Below, piece after piece: positions 36,829 through 46,449 of a stretch of DNA of 64,000 bases. This DNA comes from Cyclobacteriaceae bacterium (GTDB lineage Bacteria; Bacteroidota; Bacteroidia; Cytophagales; Cyclobacteriaceae): the NCBI GenBank assembly GCA_019638355.1, contig JAHBTY010000006.1, forward strand, positions 124,001-188,000. The letters run 5' to 3'. The position numbers and the translations under genes are program-made. Position 1 is the first letter of the stretch. Every line of letters starts with the position of its first letter. A model generated the notes under the pieces. That model worked only from the letters and a program-made list of their open reading frames with translations, was not told where the DNA came from and did no database searches.

Positions 36829-38244
36829 ATGTGGGCATTATTAGTTGGTTTGTTGGGATTTACTGCGCAACCGGTTGCTACGGATACACTTCGCCCGTTT
36901 AACGATACTACCAATCGGGTAGTTACCGTAAACCGTATATTAATTATTGGCAATAAGATTACGCGCGAAACTATTATCTCGCGCGAACTGGACGTAAAGT
37001 CAGGTGATACTATTAGTATCAAAAGACTTACTAAACTTATTGAACAAGACCAGCGAAAAATTTATAATCTTCGGTTGTTTAATACAGTTGAAGTAAGATG
37101 GCTTCCCATAACTTACCAACAGGTGGATATTCTGGTAGAAGTAACCGAGCGGTGGTACACCTTTCCGGTACCAATATTTGAACTATCTGATCGTAATTTC
37201 AATGAATGGTGGCAAAATTATAACCACGACTTCAGGCGCGTAAACTACGGGCTGCGGCTGTATCAGTACAATTTCAGAGGTCGTAATGAAACGTTGCGTC
37301 TTACCGCCCAATTTGGTTTTACAAGGCGTTTTGAACTTAGTTACCGTATTCCGTATATCGATCAAAAACAAAAGCACGGACTAATTTTTGATTTTAGTTA
37401 CAGCGAACCACGCAACCTTGCCTACTTTACCGAAGATCACAAATTAGTGTTTAGAAGCGATCGGCAACGCCTGCGCACCTCTTACATTTCGGGCATCTCT
37501 TATACTTTTCGTAAAAGTTTTTATCAAACCCACACCTTTCAATTTCAGAACCAGCAGAATTCCATTTCCGATTCAATTGCATACTATAATCCTAACTATT
37601 TTGGTAGCAGTAGTAAAAACCAATCGTTTAGCACCATTCGTTATCTTTTCAATGCCGACCATCGCGATGTTTTTGCTTATCCGCTAAAAGGATATCAGGT
37701 TACAGCGATGGCCTCCAAATCCGGCTTGGGTTTTGGTTCTGTTAACTTATGGGAGGTGAGCGCCAGTTATGCGCGCTATATAACATTGGGCCATCACTTT
37801 TACCTTTCCAACTACACCTCGGCATATGCAAGCTCACCCAACAATCAACCTTACTATTTATACAATGCGTTGGGTTATAAGCGGCAGTTGGTTAAGGGCT
37901 ATGAAGTATATGTAATTGAAGGGCCCGTATTTTTTCTGAACAAAAGCACACTGCGGAAGAAAATCTTTTCGCGCACCTGGGAGTTGGACGGGTTAGCGAT
38001 TGAACAGTTTCGATATTTTCCATTGGCCATCTACCTCAAAAGCTACCTCGACATGGGTTATGTTGATAATTATCCGTACTACGAAAACTTAAATTTAAAT
38101 ACCCGGCTTTCAAACCGATTACTTGCCGGTGTCGGTACTGGTATTGATATCGTAACGGCTTATGATGCTGTTATCCGATTGGAGTACACCTTTACCCGCG
38201 AAAAAACACAGGGTTTCTTTCTGCACATGAAGAAAGAGTTTTGA
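36829..38244 (+). CDS. BamA/TamA-like outer-membrane protein with one POTRA domain
   Basis: A 471-residue secreted protein: an N-terminal signal, a POTRA-like domain (about residues 30-105, IIGNKITRETIISREL), then a beta-barrel of the bacterial surface antigen type ending in a Phe (HMKKEF). One POTRA and a small barrel make it a distant BamA/TamA relative, not BamA itself. The substrate is not known. It ends directly against the convergent phosphatase gene with no gap. Confidence 0.75.
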   Translation: MWALLVGLLGFTAQPVATDTLRPFNDTTNRVVTVNRILIIGNKITRETIISRELDVKSGDTISIKRLTKLIEQDQRKIYNLRLFNTVEVRWLPITYQQVDILVEVTERWYTFPVPIFELSDRNFNEWWQNYNHDFRRVNYGLRLYQYNFRGRNETLRLTAQFGFTRRFELSYRIPYIDQKQKHGLIFDFSYSEPRNLAYFTEDHKLVFRSDRQRLRTSYISGISYTFRKSFYQTHTFQFQNQQNSISDSIAYYNPNYFGSSSKNQSFSTIRYLFNADHRDVFAYPLKGYQVTAMASKSGLGFGSVNLWEVSASYARYITLGHHFYLSNYTSAYASSPNNQPYYLYNALGYKRQLVKGYEVYVIEGPVFFLNKSTLRKKIFSRTWELDGLAIEQFRYFPLAIYLKSYLDMGYVDNYPYYENLNLNTRLSNRLLAGVGTGIDIVTAYDAVIRLEYTFTREKTQGFFLHMKKEF

Positions 38245-40071
38245 TTACTTTTTATTCAAAAGTTGCTTGATCTTTACGAATATCGCTGTATTGAGATAAA
38301 CTCCCTTAAAATATTCTGAACCCGGCCCATAGGCAAAAACCGGAACTGGAATACCGCTGTGATCGGTAGTACTAAAGGCACCTTGTACAAAACCAGTTTT
38401 CAAATCACCATCGATGAGTGAAAGTCCACCGGTTTCATGATCGGCTGTTATAATCAGTAATGTATCATCATCTGCATCCACAAACTTCATTGCTTCGGCT
38501 GCAGTTTTATCAAAATCCAATACTTCGGTTACAATATAACCCAAGTTGTTGGCATGCCCGCCCCAATCAATCTGTGCGCCCTCAACCATAATAAAGAATT
38601 TTTTACCCTTCCCGGAAAAAACCTGTAAGCTCTTATTCAACGACCGGCTTAAAATTTCACCCCTTCCCTTTTGTATGGGGAGCACCGTCTCGTTATCCAA
38701 TATCACAAACCTGGAGTTAGTAATGGTATCTAATGCTGCAAAGCGGGTGGCTACAGTATAGCCTTGCTTTTTAAGAGTATCTAAGAGATTTCGGTTGTCT
38801 TTCCGTTCTGAAAAATTTTTCATACCACCGCCAATCAAAATGTCCACTTTACTTTTTAGAAAGTCGTTTGCAATAGGCTCGCTCATGCCACGTTCGGGCT
38901 GATGCGCATAAAACGATGCTGGCGTAGCTCCGGTAACATCATCGCTGGTAATTAATGCTGTATGGTAGTTTTGTTGGCGAAGTATCTCAACCAAGGTTGC
39001 AACCGGCTGTCCGTTTGCATCAACACCAATGTATCGGTTATTGGTAAGCGTACCGGTAGCTAGGGCTGTTGCTCCGGCTGCTGAATCGGTAATGTAATTA
39101 TTAGCCGAGGCTGTTACACATAAACCTACTGTTGGAATATTAAAAATGGAAAGGCTACCGTGGTTAGCAGTATAGCCACTATAAAGTTGCGCCAATCCTG
39201 TTCCATCACCAATCAGGAGTATTATATTTTGAGGCGTTTTTTTCCATTTAACTTTCGGTGCCGGAACATAAGCTGTATGCGAAACCTCACCCTGATAGGT
39301 AGTAAACTCACGATTTTTAAAAAATTGAACACACGCCTCTACGTGATCGGTATTAATAATATCGGCCTTCACAAGCGAGATCAACTTCATCCAGGCGCTG
39401 ATAAAATCAGGGGCACCCCAAAACCGCACAGGTTTTCCTACTGCATGCGCTTTTGAAACCACATCTTTTACCCGTTCGTAATGTTCTTTCACCAAAACAC
39501 CTTTTCCATTCCAGTTGGTTAAAGCAGCCATGCTTGTGCTAATCATTACCACTCGTTGCAATTGGTCAGGTGTATAATTTATGGCCGGCCGACCATCAAA
39601 GTATAACCATGATGGATATTGACTCCATGTGTGCGGGGCCGGCATATTACCACTAATGGCGATTCTAAAATTTTTTGAATGGATTAACTCCGGGTATGTG
39701 CTTACAATATTTATCAGAGCAGGCAACGTAACGGAGGCTTCGGTTTTTAAATCAATCATGAGCGTAAGCATTTTTTCACGATCGGTATAAGCAAACCCGT
39801 TGTTTTCAAGAATTTTTTGTTTTAGAGGTGTGAGGTACAACTCCTGCAGTGTTTTGGCTTGTGCAAGTTCCTTTTCGGTATGGGCCACACGCAGATTATT
39901 GTCAACCAAAAAAACATCGGCCTCAATAAACCCTACCTGGTTTTCATAAGCCGTATAGAATGGTCGTGGCGTTGCATAATCATTATGAGCAAATATGGAA
40001 GAGGATGAATAGGGTTGTCCAATTACGGAAAAAGTCCATACAAGTTGAATAGAAAAGAGGATGAATTTCAT
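38245..40071 (-). CDS. Secreted fused phosphodiesterase-like / alkaline phosphatase
   Basis: A 608-residue protein with a signal peptide. The N-terminal half (about 22-265) looks like a PI-PLC/glycerophosphodiesterase barrel: IFAHNDY with His29, FIEADVF with Glu50 and Asp52, AHTEKEL with His64. The C-terminal half (about 280-605) is an alkaline phosphatase: metal ligand Asp289 (LIGDGTG), nucleophile Ser330 in ITDSAAGATALATG, EGAQIDWGGHANN, and ADHETGG. It can be expected to take a phosphodiester to free phosphate outside the cytoplasm. It follows the phospholipase gene by 62 bp in the susCD locus. Confidence 0.88.
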   Translation of the reverse strand: MKFILFSIQLVWTFSVIGQPYSSSSIFAHNDYATPRPFYTAYENQVGFIEADVFLVDNNLRVAHTEKELAQAKTLQELYLTPLKQKILENNGFAYTDREKMLTLMIDLKTEASVTLPALINIVSTYPELIHSKNFRIAISGNMPAPHTWSQYPSWLYFDGRPAINYTPDQLQRVVMISTSMAALTNWNGKGVLVKEHYERVKDVVSKAHAVGKPVRFWGAPDFISAWMKLISLVKADIINTDHVEACVQFFKNREFTTYQGEVSHTAYVPAPKVKWKKTPQNIILLIGDGTGLAQLYSGYTANHGSLSIFNIPTVGLCVTASANNYITDSAAGATALATGTLTNNRYIGVDANGQPVATLVEILRQQNYHTALITSDDVTGATPASFYAHQPERGMSEPIANDFLKSKVDILIGGGMKNFSERKDNRNLLDTLKKQGYTVATRFAALDTITNSRFVILDNETVLPIQKGRGEILSRSLNKSLQVFSGKGKKFFIMVEGAQIDWGGHANNLGYIVTEVLDFDKTAAEAMKFVDADDDTLLIITADHETGGLSLIDGDLKTGFVQGAFSTTDHSGIPVPVFAYGPGSEYFKGVYLNTAIFVKIKQLLNKK

Positions 40072-40133
40072 TTCTGAGTTTGTTTTTGCTTAGCTGTTCT
40101 TACTGAAAGATGATGCGTTTCATTGGTATGTTT

Positions 40134-41228
40134 TTATTTCAAGTTGCAAGCTTTTGATTTACTAAGTACCGGATTGCATTGGCTGTATTTACCATCAAAT
40201 GAAATTTCAAAGTCATTATTAGGACTTAGTGATTTTTGATAATAGTCTGTTGAAATTACGTGTGCACCCGAGCGAACAGCAGCTTCAAATCTGCTTTTAT
40301 TTCCGGTTCGGGCCTCGCGCGTGTCGGCATCGGAACGGGTACGAACCATAAAGCCCATCTTGACGTGCTCAATTATATTTTTTTCTTGTTTAATCGGATC
40401 ATTCATAATTAAAAAAGCTGCGTGAGAATTGTCCGGATGGGTGTTGGAAAACATGGGCCTTGTATAGGTGTCATCATCTTTTACATATAAAGCTGTTAAC
40501 TCCTTATCGGCATCTAACACAAATAGGATTTTTCCCCGCACCTTATCAAGGTTTGGCCAGCCATTATGGATAACTGCCTCGCGTAATGTTTTTGCATTTC
40601 CCTTTACCTGACCGGGAGTAATCAAATGAGCAGTACTAAAAACTTCTAAAATCTCTTTATCCAATGCATCAAAAACTTCTTTATCAAACGGGATTACTCG
40701 AGTAAAGTCGGGTTTATCAAGTCCTGAACTTTTTGGATTGATGGTGATTATAATCGGCAAATGATTGGTGTGTGATTTTGACCAATCACGAATAAACGAT
40801 AAACATATTTTGAATGTGTAGCAGTGGGTTCTGAAATCGATATCGGGTATGTGCAGCACTTTAAAACCCGGCTGCTGCATTACATCTGCATCATACGGTT
40901 TAACTTCAATTCCTTGAGACGCTAGTATATCAATACCTTTCGGCTTTGAGAACCTACCACCATCAGGATCGTAGAGTACATCAATTTCCAAACTTCTAAG
41001 GCCCAGATCTAATTGTTGTGTAATGGAGATGTGGGAATAGTCCAATCCTGTTGCCGCTGGGTTTTCAGATAAGATGAAATTCAATAATGGTTGTTCTATT
41101 TCAATTTTGTAACTATTGTGGCTACCGATTACCTGCGTTTGATTCATTTTGAGTGGTTGCCCTTGAATGCTGCCCCAATACAAACAATACACCAGCGCTA
41201 CAATAAAGTGTTTGTACAAATGCTTCAT
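40134..41228 (-). CDS. Ca2+-dependent phosphoinositide-specific phospholipase C
   Basis: A 364-residue protein with a signal peptide (about residues 1-24). Its opening VIGSHNSYKI (His37, Asn38), LRSLEIDVLYDPDGG and VLHIPDIDF place it in the PI-PLC-C1 family, members of which cleave phosphatidylinositol or related lipids. Metal ligands are expected in SLEIDV and DPDGG. It lies downstream of susD, beyond a hairpin terminator, and upstream of the fused phosphatase, so the pair fit one degradation route. The actual substrate is inferred. Confidence 0.85.
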   Translation of the reverse strand: MKHLYKHFIVALVYCLYWGSIQGQPLKMNQTQVIGSHNSYKIEIEQPLLNFILSENPAATGLDYSHISITQQLDLGLRSLEIDVLYDPDGGRFSKPKGIDILASQGIEVKPYDADVMQQPGFKVLHIPDIDFRTHCYTFKICLSFIRDWSKSHTNHLPIIITINPKSSGLDKPDFTRVIPFDKEVFDALDKEILEVFSTAHLITPGQVKGNAKTLREAVIHNGWPNLDKVRGKILFVLDADKELTALYVKDDDTYTRPMFSNTHPDNSHAAFLIMNDPIKQEKNIIEHVKMGFMVRTRSDADTREARTGNKSRFEAAVRSGAHVISTDYYQKSLSPNNDFEISFDGKYSQCNPVLSKSKACNLK

Positions 41229-41272
41229 CCTGTTATGAATTTAATGAATAAAAGGTAGGTATTGTTGGATTT

Positions 41273-41306
41273 AAAAAGGTCGAAAGCTACTATCGCTTTC
41301 GACCTT
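41273..41306 (-). terminator. Intrinsic terminator or attenuator between susD and the phospholipase gene
   Basis: On the minus strand AAGGTCGAAAGC (41306-41295) pairs with GCTTTCGACCTT (41287-41276), a perfect 12-bp stem with a 7-nt loop, followed by TTTTT. It is 24 bp after the susD stop. The phospholipase gene starts 45 bp further on and no clear promoter is seen between, so partial read-through is likely. Confidence 0.85.
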
Positions 41307-41329
41307 CTATGGTTAGATTTTTTTGAAAA

Positions 41330-43072
41330 TTAATACCCTTGGTTCTGCGACAAAAATCCGGGCAGGTTGGAAGCACCGTCAATTGCTTTTTGAGGTATAG
41401 GGAAAAGTCTTTTTGCTACATCGTTATCAGTTTTACCTGTCCAGGTACTTTCATATTTTCCAAAGCGTATCTGATAATTTCTTCTAAAGCCTTCCCAATA
41501 CAGTTCAAACCCGGCTTCACGAAATAATATATCAAGGTTAATCGAAGTTAAAGCTGCCGGTGTTTGTGCAGGTCTTGCATTTCTGGAAGTACGAAGAGTA
41601 TTTATATCAGCCAATGCACCCACATTATCGCCATTTCTCAACTTAGCTTCAGCACGCATCAGGTAAATTTCACCCAGGCGAATCAATACAATATCCACAC
41701 TGCTATAAGAACAACAGTCGGGAGAAGTTTTACTGAACTGATATTTTGAGAACCGGTGCCCAGTATGGTGTAAACTGCCCTGATCGGTAAAATCAACTTG
41801 TTTTATATGATCGACATAGGCCCGGCTTGCACCGCTGGTTCTTGCATTGATAACGGGATAAATCCGCACTTTACCATCAGCACATTTCAGGATATTACCG
41901 GCCGCATCTTTTCTAGGCCCCCATATCTTGCCGCGCAGTATTCCTCTGTTAATTTGAAAATCTAATGCATCCACGCAGAAGTAATGTTCAGAATCATTAG
42001 CAGGTGATACGTTGGTAAGGTCTTTCAGATTTTCGGGTACGATTGTATTTTCCTGGAAGAAGCGCGCATCAGCTACAGCCGGATCGACATTACCATAGGC
42101 ATCAACCCACGTTTGATAAAAATCAGGTGTTAACGCTGCAGCATCTGTACCCCGTGTGTTCGGCCACTCAGGGCGCGGTACCAAATCACCAGAAATTGAC
42201 CAATATGCCCACCGGCTATGCTCTGTTTGAAGTACGCCTCGCTGGTCGAGTGAGAAAATGATTTCCGGATTGGTGTTATTGTTATCATTAAACAATGCAA
42301 AATACTCAGGCGACAACGAGTAAGGCCCTGCAATGATCTCATTTGTGTATTGAATAACTTTCTGCATATCTGCCGACCGGAAGTCAGGCGTGCCATATGG
42401 ATTACGATATACTGCTGCATTTAAGTAAAGTCGGGCCAACAATGCCTTCACCGCATCTTTCGAAAATCTTCCACGGCCTTTATCATTACTAATTACATTC
42501 ACTACCGATAGTAGTTCACTCTCCAGGTAATCAATGGCATCTTGCCCTCTTAATACTACGGATAGTTGAGACGCACTTGATTTCTTGAATACGAGGCCCC
42601 AATTGTCAAGTAACAACATATTAAGGTATGCCTTCATAGCAATCATTTCAGCAAGGGCGTGTTGAGCCTCGGCATTGTTTGCTGCTTCAGGCTTTAATCT
42701 TTCTTCTGCTGCTACTGCTCTGGATAAATTCAATGTCAGATCAGTCCAGGTATCGCCTACCAATGCGTTTCCGGGGGTCATCAGATGTTGATGTACTGCA
42801 ATAAATTTTCCGCCATCAAACCAATCTCTTCCTCCACGATACGGCAGAATGGCTTCATCAGAAGCAATTTCCTGAAGACCAAAATTACGGGTATGCTGCC
42901 ATACATTACGAAGATAACCATAAGCCGGTGCTATTGATCCACTTACGGTTTCGGCCTGGCCGGTTCCGGTAAGCGACTCATCCAATACTTGCTCTTCCAG
43001 GCTGGTACAACTTAAGAATGCTAATAAAAATGCAAAGAGGGGAAACGTCTTATTGTACTTTATATTTTTCAT
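41330..43072 (-). CDS. SusD/RagB-family nutrient-binding lipoprotein
   Basis: A 580-residue surface lipoprotein with lipobox FLSC and Cys22. The alpha-helical SusD fold is shown by NLSRAVAAEERL, LLDNWGLVF, DAVKALLARLYLNAA, and the C-terminal signature VLIRLGEIYLMRAEAKLRNGD and LFREAGFELYWEGFRRNYQIRFG. It captures substrate for the SusC channel encoded just upstream (45-bp gap). Because the genes that follow are a phospholipase and a phosphatase, its ligand may be a phosphorylated compound and not a glycan. Confidence 0.95.
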   Translation of the reverse strand: MKNIKYNKTFPLFAFLLAFLSCTSLEEQVLDESLTGTGQAETVSGSIAPAYGYLRNVWQHTRNFGLQEIASDEAILPYRGGRDWFDGGKFIAVHQHLMTPGNALVGDTWTDLTLNLSRAVAAEERLKPEAANNAEAQHALAEMIAMKAYLNMLLLDNWGLVFKKSSASQLSVVLRGQDAIDYLESELLSVVNVISNDKGRGRFSKDAVKALLARLYLNAAVYRNPYGTPDFRSADMQKVIQYTNEIIAGPYSLSPEYFALFNDNNNTNPEIIFSLDQRGVLQTEHSRWAYWSISGDLVPRPEWPNTRGTDAAALTPDFYQTWVDAYGNVDPAVADARFFQENTIVPENLKDLTNVSPANDSEHYFCVDALDFQINRGILRGKIWGPRKDAAGNILKCADGKVRIYPVINARTSGASRAYVDHIKQVDFTDQGSLHHTGHRFSKYQFSKTSPDCCSYSSVDIVLIRLGEIYLMRAEAKLRNGDNVGALADINTLRTSRNARPAQTPAALTSINLDILFREAGFELYWEGFRRNYQIRFGKYESTWTGKTDNDVAKRLFPIPQKAIDGASNLPGFLSQNQGY

Positions 43073-43117
43073 ATTGTTCCGTTAGATGTTGTTGAAAAGA
43101 ATTGTTTGTCATTGATT

Positions 43118-46100
43118 TTAGAATGTTGCGCTAAGACTGAACAAAAACGTGCGCGCTCTTGGATAGGTAAACCGATCAATACCAAAAGTTTGTATTTCGC
43201 CCGAAGTTGATCCTGTATTTACTTCAGGGTCATATCCGGAGTACTCTGTTACTATAAATAAGTTTTGACCGGTAACGGAAAGGCGAATATTCTGGAATGT
43301 ATTGCCTAAGCCAATTTTAGAAGGCCTTAGGTTATAGCCCAGTGTTGCATTGTTCAACCTCAGGAAGGAACCATTCTCCAGATAACGGGTTGATACAGTA
43401 TTGGAGTTACTGGATGATTCGTTTGGATATTGGATTGCAAAATCGGTTGTATTGTTCGATCGTGTTAGTTGTGCTTTACTAAACAACGTCATGGTTGTGT
43501 GGTTGTAAATTTTATTCCCTGAAACACCATTGAAGTTGAAACCCAAATCGAAATCCTTGTATTTAAAATTCATGTAAAACGCATAGATAAAATCAGGAAT
43601 TGAATTACCTACTACCCTGCGATCGTTGTCTAAAACTGAGCCGTCTCCGTTGGTATCTTTAAATCGGTTAAGTCCATCTGCGCCTATTCCATCAAATTCA
43701 AGCATATAAAATGCCCCAATAGCTTCGTTATTAACATATCCATTTATGGTTGCACCTGTTTGACCTGAGCCTTGCGCTGCACCGGTGGTTAATACGGTAA
43801 ATGGAGAATCTTTAACCGTGTTTCTAATAAAGGTAACGTTACCGCCAATATTGTAAACAAAATTACGCTGTGAATTTCCCTTATAATTCAAGGATAGCTC
43901 AACACCATTGTTTTGAATAACCATATCGTTGATGTTAGTCCAAAATCTGTCGGTAGGCTGCACAGGATCGGCCGGTTGTACTTCCAATAAAATATTGGTA
44001 GAGCGTTTGTTGAAGTAATCCAACGTACCGGTTAAGCGGTAATCAAGCAAGGCAAAATCAATTCCGATGTCAGTTTGGGTAGAAACTTCCCACTGCAGAT
44101 CAGGATTTGCCAACCGGGTAAATGTAATTCCAAAAGGATAACCATCAATTGAATTTGCATTAGGATTGATTGGATACGTGTTGGCACTGGAGCCCCCTGT
44201 TATTAATCTTGATTCTGAAAAACTTGCTTGTGTTATTTTGGCAGGTATTTCCTGATTACCGGTTTGACCCCAGCTTGCACGTAATTTTAAGTTTTGAAAG
44301 AACGAGTTAGACATAAACTTCTCGTTAATAATATTCCAACCTAATGCAACCGATGGGAAGTAACCGTATTTATTGTTACTACCAAATTTCGAGGAACCAT
44401 CAGCGCGCAGTGTGGCCGTAACCAAATACCGGTCAGCGTATCCATAGTTCACCCTACCAAAGAAGGATTGCAACTCATTTTTTTCGGCACTTGAAGTTAG
44501 CGTGGTCGGGAACGTACTGCTACTGGTCTGATCCTGATATTTTGGTTCGATGTTGTTATTGGCAAAACCTCGTAAGGTTATCGATCGGTCTTCATTTACA
44601 AACTTCTGGTACGAATGCCCGGCCAATACTGCCACCGAATGAACGTTTTTGTTCCAGTTGTAATTAAGCGTATTTTCTACCAACTGGTTGGTGTTTGCAC
44701 TGATAGTATTTACCAACGATCCGTTGGAGATATTTGATTCATTTACAACTTCAGGAAATGGTTTGAATTGAACATCGCGGATGGTGGCAGAATAATCAAC
44801 ACCTGCATTCAACTTATAAACAAGACCTTTTACTATTTCTAACGATGGTGAAAAAGATGCCAAAATACGATTGTTGGTGGCCAGATCGCTGTACAGTTCG
44901 TTCCGCTTCAGCGGATTCAAGGCATTAACATTCAGCAGCGTTGGTTCGCCATTGGTATAAGCCGGTATAGTTGGGTTTAAACTGAGCATATCACTGATGG
45001 TAGGGCTTATTTGCGGTCGTAAATTTTCAGTACGCGAGGCTGTAAGGTTATACTCAATATTCAATTTGTTATTAATTGCCTTTTGAGTCATATTCAATTT
45101 TCCTGAATAACGTTTTAGGTTGCTATTCTTTAAAATTCCTTCCTGATCTTGCAAACCAACGGAGGCGAAATAGGAAAACTTATCGGCTGCACCACTCAAC
45201 GAAAAATTAGCATTGGTAGATAATCCCGTTTGGCTCAATTCATCCTGCCAGTCTGTGTTTCCGTCAAAGTCTTCCAGCAGTCCGCCTTCGGCTACAACCT
45301 GATTACGAAACTCCGTGGCATTGAACACATTTATTTTTTTAGACAGCGAAGACACCCCAGAGGAGATGGATAAATTCATTTCTGTTTTCCCTGCTTTTCC
45401 TTTCTTGGTTGTGATTACCACCACTCCATTTGATGCTCTTGATCCATAAACAGCTGCCGCACTGGCATCTTTCAGCACATCAATACTTTCAATATCACCA
45501 GGATTAAGGAAGTTTAATGGATTGGTATCAAAACCGTTGCTCGAATTATCAAGTAATAAACCATCCACCACATAAAGCGGTTGCGTTCCGGAACGAAGAC
45601 TGCCAATGCCGCGTATAATCACATTTTGGGCGGCTCCTGGTTCGCCACTTGTTGATGTTATGTTAACACCGGCCAGCTTGCCTTGCAAAAGCTCACCGGC
45701 ATTTGCAAGAACGCCTTTGTTAAAATCATCGCTTTTAACAGATGCAATGGCGCCCGTTACATCCGACCGCTTTTGTGTTCCATAACCCACAACCACAACC
45801 TCGGCAAGTGTTTCAGCATCGGGAAGCAACTGAATGGAAATTTCTGTTTGTGCGCCTACTCGTACTTCCTGAGTAGCAGTACCTACAAAGCTAAAAACCA
45901 GAACTGCTTCCTGAGAAGCTACCGTAAGCCTGTAGTTTCCATTGGCATCAGCCACCGTTCCATTACTGGTTCCCTTTTCAAGAATGTTTACTCCCGGAAG
46001 TGCAGCTCCTGTTTCATCAGTAACTTTTCCAAATATTGAAATCGTATTTTGCTGTGTCAATGAAAACACAGGTGAGAATGAAAATGCAAAAAGCACTAAC

Positions 46101-46174
46101 AGCGTAAAACTTAAAAACTTTTTTAAATCCAGGCGTGTTTTTTCATTTGTAACTAGCAGGTAATCATTTTTCAT
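43118..46174 (-). CDS. SusC/RagA-family TonB-dependent outer-membrane transporter
   Basis: A 1018-residue protein. A signal sequence with a long basic n-region precedes a carboxypeptidase-regulatory-like domain (KVTDETGAALPGVNILEKG, about residues 40-120), the plug (EVVVVGYGTQKRSDVTGA, YVVDGLLLD, LKDASAAAVYGSRASNGVVV) and a 22-strand barrel ending in SLSATF with terminal Phe. It is a substrate channel driven by TonB-ExbBD. ATG at 46174 is preferred to an in-frame start 84 bp upstream because it directly precedes the signal. No sigma/anti-sigma gene pair is adjacent, so regulation differs from the usual ECF-controlled loci. Confidence 0.95.
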   Translation of the reverse strand: MKNDYLLVTNEKTRLDLKKFLSFTLLVLFAFSFSPVFSLTQQNTISIFGKVTDETGAALPGVNILEKGTSNGTVADANGNYRLTVASQEAVLVFSFVGTATQEVRVGAQTEISIQLLPDAETLAEVVVVGYGTQKRSDVTGAIASVKSDDFNKGVLANAGELLQGKLAGVNITSTSGEPGAAQNVIIRGIGSLRSGTQPLYVVDGLLLDNSSNGFDTNPLNFLNPGDIESIDVLKDASAAAVYGSRASNGVVVITTKKGKAGKTEMNLSISSGVSSLSKKINVFNATEFRNQVVAEGGLLEDFDGNTDWQDELSQTGLSTNANFSLSGAADKFSYFASVGLQDQEGILKNSNLKRYSGKLNMTQKAINNKLNIEYNLTASRTENLRPQISPTISDMLSLNPTIPAYTNGEPTLLNVNALNPLKRNELYSDLATNNRILASFSPSLEIVKGLVYKLNAGVDYSATIRDVQFKPFPEVVNESNISNGSLVNTISANTNQLVENTLNYNWNKNVHSVAVLAGHSYQKFVNEDRSITLRGFANNNIEPKYQDQTSSSTFPTTLTSSAEKNELQSFFGRVNYGYADRYLVTATLRADGSSKFGSNNKYGYFPSVALGWNIINEKFMSNSFFQNLKLRASWGQTGNQEIPAKITQASFSESRLITGGSSANTYPINPNANSIDGYPFGITFTRLANPDLQWEVSTQTDIGIDFALLDYRLTGTLDYFNKRSTNILLEVQPADPVQPTDRFWTNINDMVIQNNGVELSLNYKGNSQRNFVYNIGGNVTFIRNTVKDSPFTVLTTGAAQGSGQTGATINGYVNNEAIGAFYMLEFDGIGADGLNRFKDTNGDGSVLDNDRRVVGNSIPDFIYAFYMNFKYKDFDLGFNFNGVSGNKIYNHTTMTLFSKAQLTRSNNTTDFAIQYPNESSSNSNTVSTRYLENGSFLRLNNATLGYNLRPSKIGLGNTFQNIRLSVTGQNLFIVTEYSGYDPEVNTGSTSGEIQTFGIDRFTYPRARTFLFSLSATF

Positions 46175-46229: not shown

Positions 46230-46449
46230 TAAATCGATACTTCCTGAATAACACCCACCGATTACCTAATCGTTAATCATAGCAGCACTATAAAGCATAG
46301 TGGTAACATGGCCGTAAACAAGTGTGGCCATTTGATATTCACCACTTCAAAGATTGACTTAAAAGTTTAAGATGAGACTACATCGAAATCAAATGATTAG
46401 AAAATCGAAATCGATTCCGGATTAGAACAGTAAGTGGCTTAATATTTTA

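Follow-up and report, generated by a model that had tools for sequence, protein, structure and literature searches.

A SusCD-like locus with a PI-PLC-C1 family phospholipase and a phosphodiesterase-alkaline phosphatase fusion, a probable organophosphorus scavenging operon outside Flavobacterium

Introduction

SusC-SusD pairs import substrates across the outer membrane, and these substrates are normally sugars. Which compound would such a pair serve when the genes that follow it encode a phospholipase and a phosphatase? The question is raised by four genes found in the window, by which we mean the whole 64,000-nucleotide stretch of DNA from a Cyclobacteriaceae bacterium that was analysed.

Flavobacterium johnsoniae provides a published case. 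In this organism, two SusCD-like complexes that are induced by phosphate depletion only were named phosphate utilisation systems (PUS; PMC8115612). PUSI contains PusCD1 (Fjoh_4168/9), an ECF sigma factor (Fjoh_4171) and two diesterases (Fjoh_4172/4173). The diesterases are a Ca2+-dependent phosphoinositide phospholipase C (PF16670) and a CpdA-type metallophosphatase, and their two Pfam numbers seem to be swapped in the table of the paper. In PUSII, PusCD2 (Fjoh_3250/1) is located beside PhoA1 (Fjoh_3249), a PhoA with an extra PF13653 GDPD_2 domain. A search of the openly licensed literature for such loci returned this study as the only clearly relevant one.

The locus and its gene products

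The locus is composed of four co-directional intact ORFs on the minus strand (38245-46174). They encode SusC, SusD, a PF16670 (PI-PLC-C1) phospholipase, hereafter PLC, and a GDPD-like/PhoA fusion. A degenerate repeat lies upstream of susC.

43118..46174, minus strand: SusC-like TonB-dependent transporter (TIGR04056; PF07715, PF13715, PF00593)
41330..43072, minus strand: surface lipoprotein of the SusD type, akin to the SusD lineage of PUSI (PF07980, E 3.9e-17; SusD trees)
40134..41228, minus strand: secreted PI-PLC-C1 family phosphodiesterase, probably periplasmic (PF16670, E 9.5e-114, whole profile)
38245..40071, minus strand: secreted fusion of an N-terminal GDPD/PLC-like part and a C-terminal PhoA-type alkaline phosphatase (PF00245, E 5.1e-54)
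46261..46276, minus strand: degenerate 11-bp direct repeat TTAACGATTAGGTAAT, a weak candidate for a regulator site (2 mismatches to TTAAC-N6-TTAAC)

A preliminary description, made from the sequence alone, had reported a row of four genes on one strand, and the ORF positions and family matches confirm this. In the order fusion-PLC-SusD-SusC, the intergenic gaps are 62, 101 and 45 bp. The fusion, PLC and SusD have 608, 364 and 580 aa, respectively. The likelier start of susC is the ATG at 46174; an upstream GTG would give 46258. SusC matches TIGR04056 with E 1.9e-231 (771 bits, cut-off 368) and SusD matches SusD_RagB with E 3.9e-17. Signal peptides and the LSC lipobox of SusD were seen by eye. 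Neither a lipobox nor a T9SS tail was seen by eye in PLC and fusion, and these two look like soluble periplasmic proteins. Annotation covered the four operon genes and 12 further proteins of the window. No glycoside hydrolase, sigma factor or FecR was found among these 12, and the earlier statement that glycoside hydrolases and an ECF sigma/anti-sigma pair are missing holds for these annotated neighbours.

The PLC matches PF16670 with 380 bits, far over the curated cut-off of 29.9. Residues H37, N38, E81, D83 and H126 are invariant in an alignment of 51 sequences. Search with its structure model (pLDDT 94.5) using Foldseek returned the Ca2+-dependent PI-PLCs 5fyp, 5fyr and 3h4w as nearest structures. 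These enzymes, from Pseudomonas sp. (5fyp, 5fyr) and Streptomyces antibioticus (3h4w), show the same fold class (E 3e-15 and 5e-12). Their identity with the window PLC is about 13-16% and the TM-score is about 0.5 by query length; carrying their substrate over to the modelled enzyme would be unsafe. No match was obtained in a PHROGs search with the PLC. In five Brevundimonas loci (L159, L176, L183, L190, L209), a PLC of the same family is encoded by an open frame with about 200 additional residues, and no SusD match was found within the stretches inspected.

The preliminary description had proposed that headgroups are released at the cell surface, possibly from phosphoinositides or GPI-like lipids. 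In that scenario, the PLC would attack inositol lipids of eukaryotes extracellularly, and SusCD would import the headgroup. In line with this, the family takes its name from enzymes acting on phosphoinositides, Ca2+-dependent PI-PLCs come nearest among solved folds, and the PLC of some relatives (e.g. L146, L102, L104) starts lipobox-like, as judged by eye. Moreover, Table 1 of PMC8115612 gives exoproteome values of 6.03 and 2.18 for the two PUSI diesterases, the second with p 5.44E-03; these values argue somewhat against import before cleavage. However, the window PLC, inspected by eye, showed neither a lipobox nor a T9SS tail nor any further surface signal, its identity to the solved PI-PLCs is limited to the values given above, and the location predicted for the homologous PUSI diesterases and PhoA1 in PMC8115612 is 'Periplasm'. 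The proposal of headgroup release at the surface is not supported by these observations, PLC and fusion looking soluble and periplasmic, though given the exoproteome values some release to the outside may occur. The GPI suggestion found no support. Degradation of GPI or surface lipids was rejected as the main reading on the basis of the missing surface signal and of the lack of specific evidence, and we consider it unlikely.

The fusion has an N-terminal part, at about residues 20-250, and a PhoA-type part, at about residues 277-603. The N-terminal part gives a sub-threshold match to PF13653 GDPD_2 (E 0.0085, 17.0 bits, cut-off 27), and a sequence search found no solved relative of this domain. 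Residues H29, E50, D52, H64 and D107, a set resembling the GDPD-type active-site pattern, are invariant in six fusions, as are D289, S330, D502, H506, D544, H545 and H571, which are of the metal/nucleophile type and belong to the PhoA part. The PhoA part matches PF00245 with 184 bits (cut-off 24.4) and the TAB5 alkaline phosphatase (2w5v) with E 5.8e-76, and the NCBIfam equivalog PRK10518 was not reached by the fusion (115.5 vs 540 bits). The fusion is the sole PF00245 gene of the window genome. Its structure model, obtained with six sequences, was poor (pLDDT 69.5, with block values of 84-93 over residues 41-180) and was used for the phosphatase fold match and inspection of the N-terminal domain only. 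In Algoriphagus ratkowskyi (L090 and L168), the PDE-PhoA fusion is split between two frames, 444 and 170 aa long, which may reflect a broken gene or an assembly error.

Relationship with the PUS loci

As in the PUS loci, the SusCD pair of the window is accompanied by phosphodiesterase/phosphomonoesterase genes in place of CAZymes. One locus of F. johnsoniae CI04 (L202), with SusD, SusC, FecR, ECF sigma, PLC and metallophosphatase, reproduces PUSI. A single fusion is present in the CI04 genome; it shares 53% identity with that of the window over residues 3-606 and is located directly after SusC-SusD (L236). Because of its architecture and gene order, this locus was taken as the PhoA1 locus; genes of 186 and 306 aa precede its SusC.

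The window locus resembles PUSI by its SusCD pair with a PF16670 PLC and by its SusD, which is nearest to the group holding the PUSI SusD. In contrast with PUSI, it has neither ECF sigma/FecR nor metallophosphatase, it runs in one direction, and the fused PDE-phosphatase is added. It resembles PUSII by the fusion, which has the same architecture as the CI04 fusion and is grouped with it in trees. However, the PUSII SusD belongs to a far separate lineage, the CI04 PUSII-like locus has no PLC, and the fusion of the window follows the PLC and not directly SusCD. Both enzyme types, the PUSI-type PLC and the PUSII-type phosphatase, appear here behind one SusCD pair. We regard this conserved and functionally coherent locus, found outside Flavobacterium, as a hybrid of PUS loci already published, and not as categorically new. 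The analogy with phosphatase-linked SusCD pairs of Flavobacterium, drawn in the preliminary description, was right and close, with a PF16670 PLC at PusCD1 and a PhoA-GDPD_2 at PusCD2 in PMC8115612.

Loci that bring together related SusCD, PLC and PDE-PhoA fusion are also found in the window's own family, including those of Algoriphagus chordae (L170) and A. locisalis (L205). They differ from the window locus in that the fusion is divergent from the PLC and belongs to another fusion clade. A metallophosphatase is located beside the PLC in 8 of the 11 own-family loci with fusion (L087, L094, L096, L100, L101, L110, L170, L205), and none is found at this place in L083, L090 and L098.

A first, quick SusD tree was calculated with 74 proteins, 66 encoded near a PLC and 8 near a fusion without PLC. 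The window SusD falls in a 31-row group (support 100), all rows of which are PLC-linked, this linkage being partly built in since the rows were picked for a nearby PLC or fusion. One PLC-linked and one fusion-only row join it in the next larger group with support. The tree indicates that the association of one SusD lineage with the PLC persists when the gene order changes, which does not imply exclusivity to PLC loci. A second tree had 34 rows, again picked for a nearby PLC or fusion, and a midpoint root. There, the group of the window SusD adjoins, but is not inside, a group comprising the PUSI SusD of Flavobacterium and three further PLC-linked rows. The two groups together have a support of 100/99, and the PUSII SusD is far from the window SusD.

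The fusions of the window and of the congeners G009 and G807 group with the Flavobacterium fusions (100/99), and not with those of Algoriphagus, which form another clade and likewise sit beside PLCs. As judged from these sequence relationships, the window locus can be described as PUSI-like in its transporter and PLC and PUSII-like in its phosphatase. PLC linkage changes four times across the tree of 30 fusions, 16 of which are PLC-linked. A single origin of the pairing of PLC and fusion was rejected: one clade of the 16 PLC-linked fusions gives an AU p of 4e-54, a value that is optimistic because the group was named after the tree had been seen and because L103, with a fusion 6.2 kb from the PLC, was counted as unlinked. 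Since the PLC-linked fusions are not one clade, the pairing would have arisen or been shuffled more than once.

Conservation of the gene linkage

PF16670 was found in 54 of the 390 genomes searched at the order level and in 35 of the 395 searched at the class level. The order-level set contained 53 loci, namely 50 profile-search matches and the loci of G009, G035 and G052. The window itself was left out, as were the weak or partial matches G340, G367, G393, G104:C14 and G117:C38 and the partial match of G023, whose stretch (L009) has no PLC. The class-level set contained 29 further loci; three genomes already present at the order level and five weak or partial matches were left out.

A co-directional SusD directly upstream of the PLC, within 400 bp, was found in 18 of the 53 order-level and 4 of the 29 class-level loci. 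SusC lies at most 5 kb from the PLC in 38/53 and 9/29 loci, and the GDPD-PhoA fusion in 10/53 and 1/29. In these counts, loci cut by contig ends were scored as misses, and distant SusD proteins may be missed because the search profiles were grown from the window's proteins. SusC was absent within 5 kb of the PLC at 15/53 order-level and 20/29 class-level loci, some of them on short contigs. Loose SusC/TonB-receptor candidates number 68 in the 4.49 Mb of the window genome and 152 in about 6.3 Mb of G359. We calculate that the tight SusD-PLC order would be expected by chance at about 2% of loci, and SusC within 5 kb at between a fifth and a third of them. The observed counts are not independent, because the loci are related to one another. 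The linkage of PLC with SusCD is beyond chance, and a chance neighbourhood was rejected on these counts. Genes unlinked in relatives, the outcome by which the preliminary description had proposed to be judged, were not what was observed, as the order-level counts for SusD (18/53) and SusC (38/53) make clear.

A genome scan with the PLC alignment was used to find named relatives. The best 80 of the 583 loci include one of Imperialibacter with the order SusC-SusD-PLC, whose PLC shares 66% identity with that of the window. Euzebyella marina and Cytophaga sp. FL35, among the same 80, have fusion-SusC-SusD-PLC-metallophosphatase, and Pontibacter harenae has fusion-SusC-SusD-PLC. SusC-SusD is directly before the fusion in seven of the 13 fusion loci without PLC (L236-L248).

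The PLC is also found in other surroundings. Nine loci that are flavobacterial by record name (L152, L154, L156, L161, L184, L188, L204, L215, L224) share another recurrent order: the PLC is listed first, then a protein some 980-1006 aa long, next a metallophosphatase and last a protein of some 1345 aa. In two order-level loci of family f11 (L066, L075), a PF04185 phosphoesterase of roughly 890 aa comes directly after the PLC; its N-terminal half shows weak propeller matches.

Proposed function

We propose that the locus is most likely a PUS-type organophosphorus scavenging operon that imports organic phosphodiesters and dephosphorylates them for phosphate. SusD would capture a soluble organic phosphodiester at the surface, and SusC would import it using TonB energy. 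In the periplasm, the PLC, the N-terminal domain of the fusion, or both, would open the diester. The PhoA domain would then take the phosphate off the monoester, and the freed phosphate would pass to the cell's own transporter. The gene order, the families, the conserved catalytic-type residues and the conserved linkage on which this scheme is built are those described above. The protein locations and the order of the reactions are deduced; import is placed before cleavage because no surface signals were seen on PLC and fusion.

Phosphate is the presumed nutrient, because of the homologous loci and because no IolE over the curated cut-off was found in the window genome, where seven matches are sub-threshold. 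The missing IolE weakly favours phosphate over inositol. We also infer that the operon is under phosphate control. Conversely, the cell could feed on the alcohol moiety of the phosphodiester (inositol, glycerol or another), with phosphate as a by-product, since SusCD pairs usually bring in carbon sources. The IolE result and the induction of the homologous F. johnsoniae loci by phosphate depletion, as described in PMC8115612, speak against this carbon-scavenging scenario, and we regard it as very unlikely.

A phospholipid headgroup or a deacylated phospholipid would be the probable substrate of the scavenging operon; glycerophosphoinositol is given here as an example, the exact compound being a guess. 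Substrates containing inositol are suggested by two elements, the family name of the PLC and the remote fold. A PUS-type locus might also take a phosphodiester polymer or a nucleotide (teichoic acid-like, cyclic nucleotide, DNA fragments), a proposal that overlaps with the preferred one in all but substrate. SusCD pairs do import oligomers, and nucleic acids are named beside lipid headgroups as likely PUSI targets in PMC8115612. No nuclease or endo-acting enzyme is found in the window operon, which speaks against such a substrate; the other counter-arguments derive from the enzyme families alone. We find the polymer or nucleotide version doubtful, though worth keeping in mind.

Altogether, families and PUS homology support the earlier idea of a Sus-like locus aimed at phosphodiesters and not at glycans. 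The range of SusCD systems apparently serving phosphorus rather than carbon is widened from Flavobacterium to several other Bacteroidota families. The comparison also brings out a conserved SusD lineage, behind which the enzyme module varies. The label 'polysaccharide utilisation' would be misleading for such SusCD pairs.

Cassette behaviour and candidate regulatory repeat

The POTRA gene adjoining the operon was used to survey the site in 58 genomes of the genus, including that of the window; 56 matched and 30 loci were examined. The operon is present at the POTRA site in G000, G009 and G807 (3/30, the window's included). The site is empty in the 27 others, where a MORN or OMP gene follows the POTRA gene with no operon part between. 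G035, whose POTRA site is empty, carries SusC-SusD-PLC-GDPD-like genes on another contig. There, the GDPD-like domain forms a protein of its own (255 aa), and the G035 genome gave no match to PF00245. In G807, an extra metallophosphatase is located between PLC and fusion. From the occupied and empty sites, the operon behaves as a unit gained or lost whole, in which variable enzymes surround SusC-SusD-PLC; the survey does not distinguish gain from loss.

Upstream of susC, an 11-bp period was searched because the Pho box is known; such a period fits an OmpR/PhoB-type regulator. The repeat TTAAC-N6-TTAAC, with at most one mismatch, was found upstream of 36 of 73 PLC-linked susC (the window's included) vs 4 of 29 other susC from four genomes, with a p value of 6.5e-4 that is optimistic because the TTAAC core was chosen after viewing the same sequences. 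Other periods, from 7 to 18 bp, were found at 4-12 of the 73 PLC-linked susC, Markov shuffles give the repeat at 8.8%, and 29 of 58 upstream regions retain it once similar ones are removed. In the window, the repeat is located about 100 bp before the susC ATG; with its 2 mismatches, this site alone is not above chance. G009 (1 mismatch) and G807 (2 mismatches) have a similar site at roughly this distance. Before the susC of fusion loci without PLC, no enrichment of the repeat was found (2/9), and it was not seen before the F. johnsoniae PUSI susC (L202), where the best site has 4/12 mismatches with a longer form. Both results argue against taking the repeat for a general phosphate signal. The window genome contains 13 exact sites vs 7 for the reversed pattern. 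By eye, these sites precede mixed genes that are not obviously phosphate genes, and the attempt to validate the repeat as a Pho box within this genome was negative.

A more specific scheme would make the locus a self-contained system for the import and dismantling of inositol-type phosphodiesters, with one SusCD pair supplying a PLC in the periplasm, along with another diesterase and a phosphatase. It would be a spreading cassette with a constant SusCD-PLC core, an exchanged phosphatase module and a Pho-box-like 11-bp repeat. We put this scheme forward as tentative, with rather little confidence in it as a whole.

No target duplication was obvious by eye at the operon ends when compared with the empty sites of congeners. 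Relative to such sites (e.g. L298, L299, L302), the operon ends clean at 38244/38245 and about 46449. Finally, the fusion gene has about 60% identity with that of G009 at 39701-40100, and 93-100% at 38901-39500, where 200 bp are fully identical. Between the two genomes, identity is 83-95% for the PhoA part and the adjoining POTRA gene and about 68-88% for the other parts of the operon. An apparent recombination boundary would thus lie within the fusion gene.
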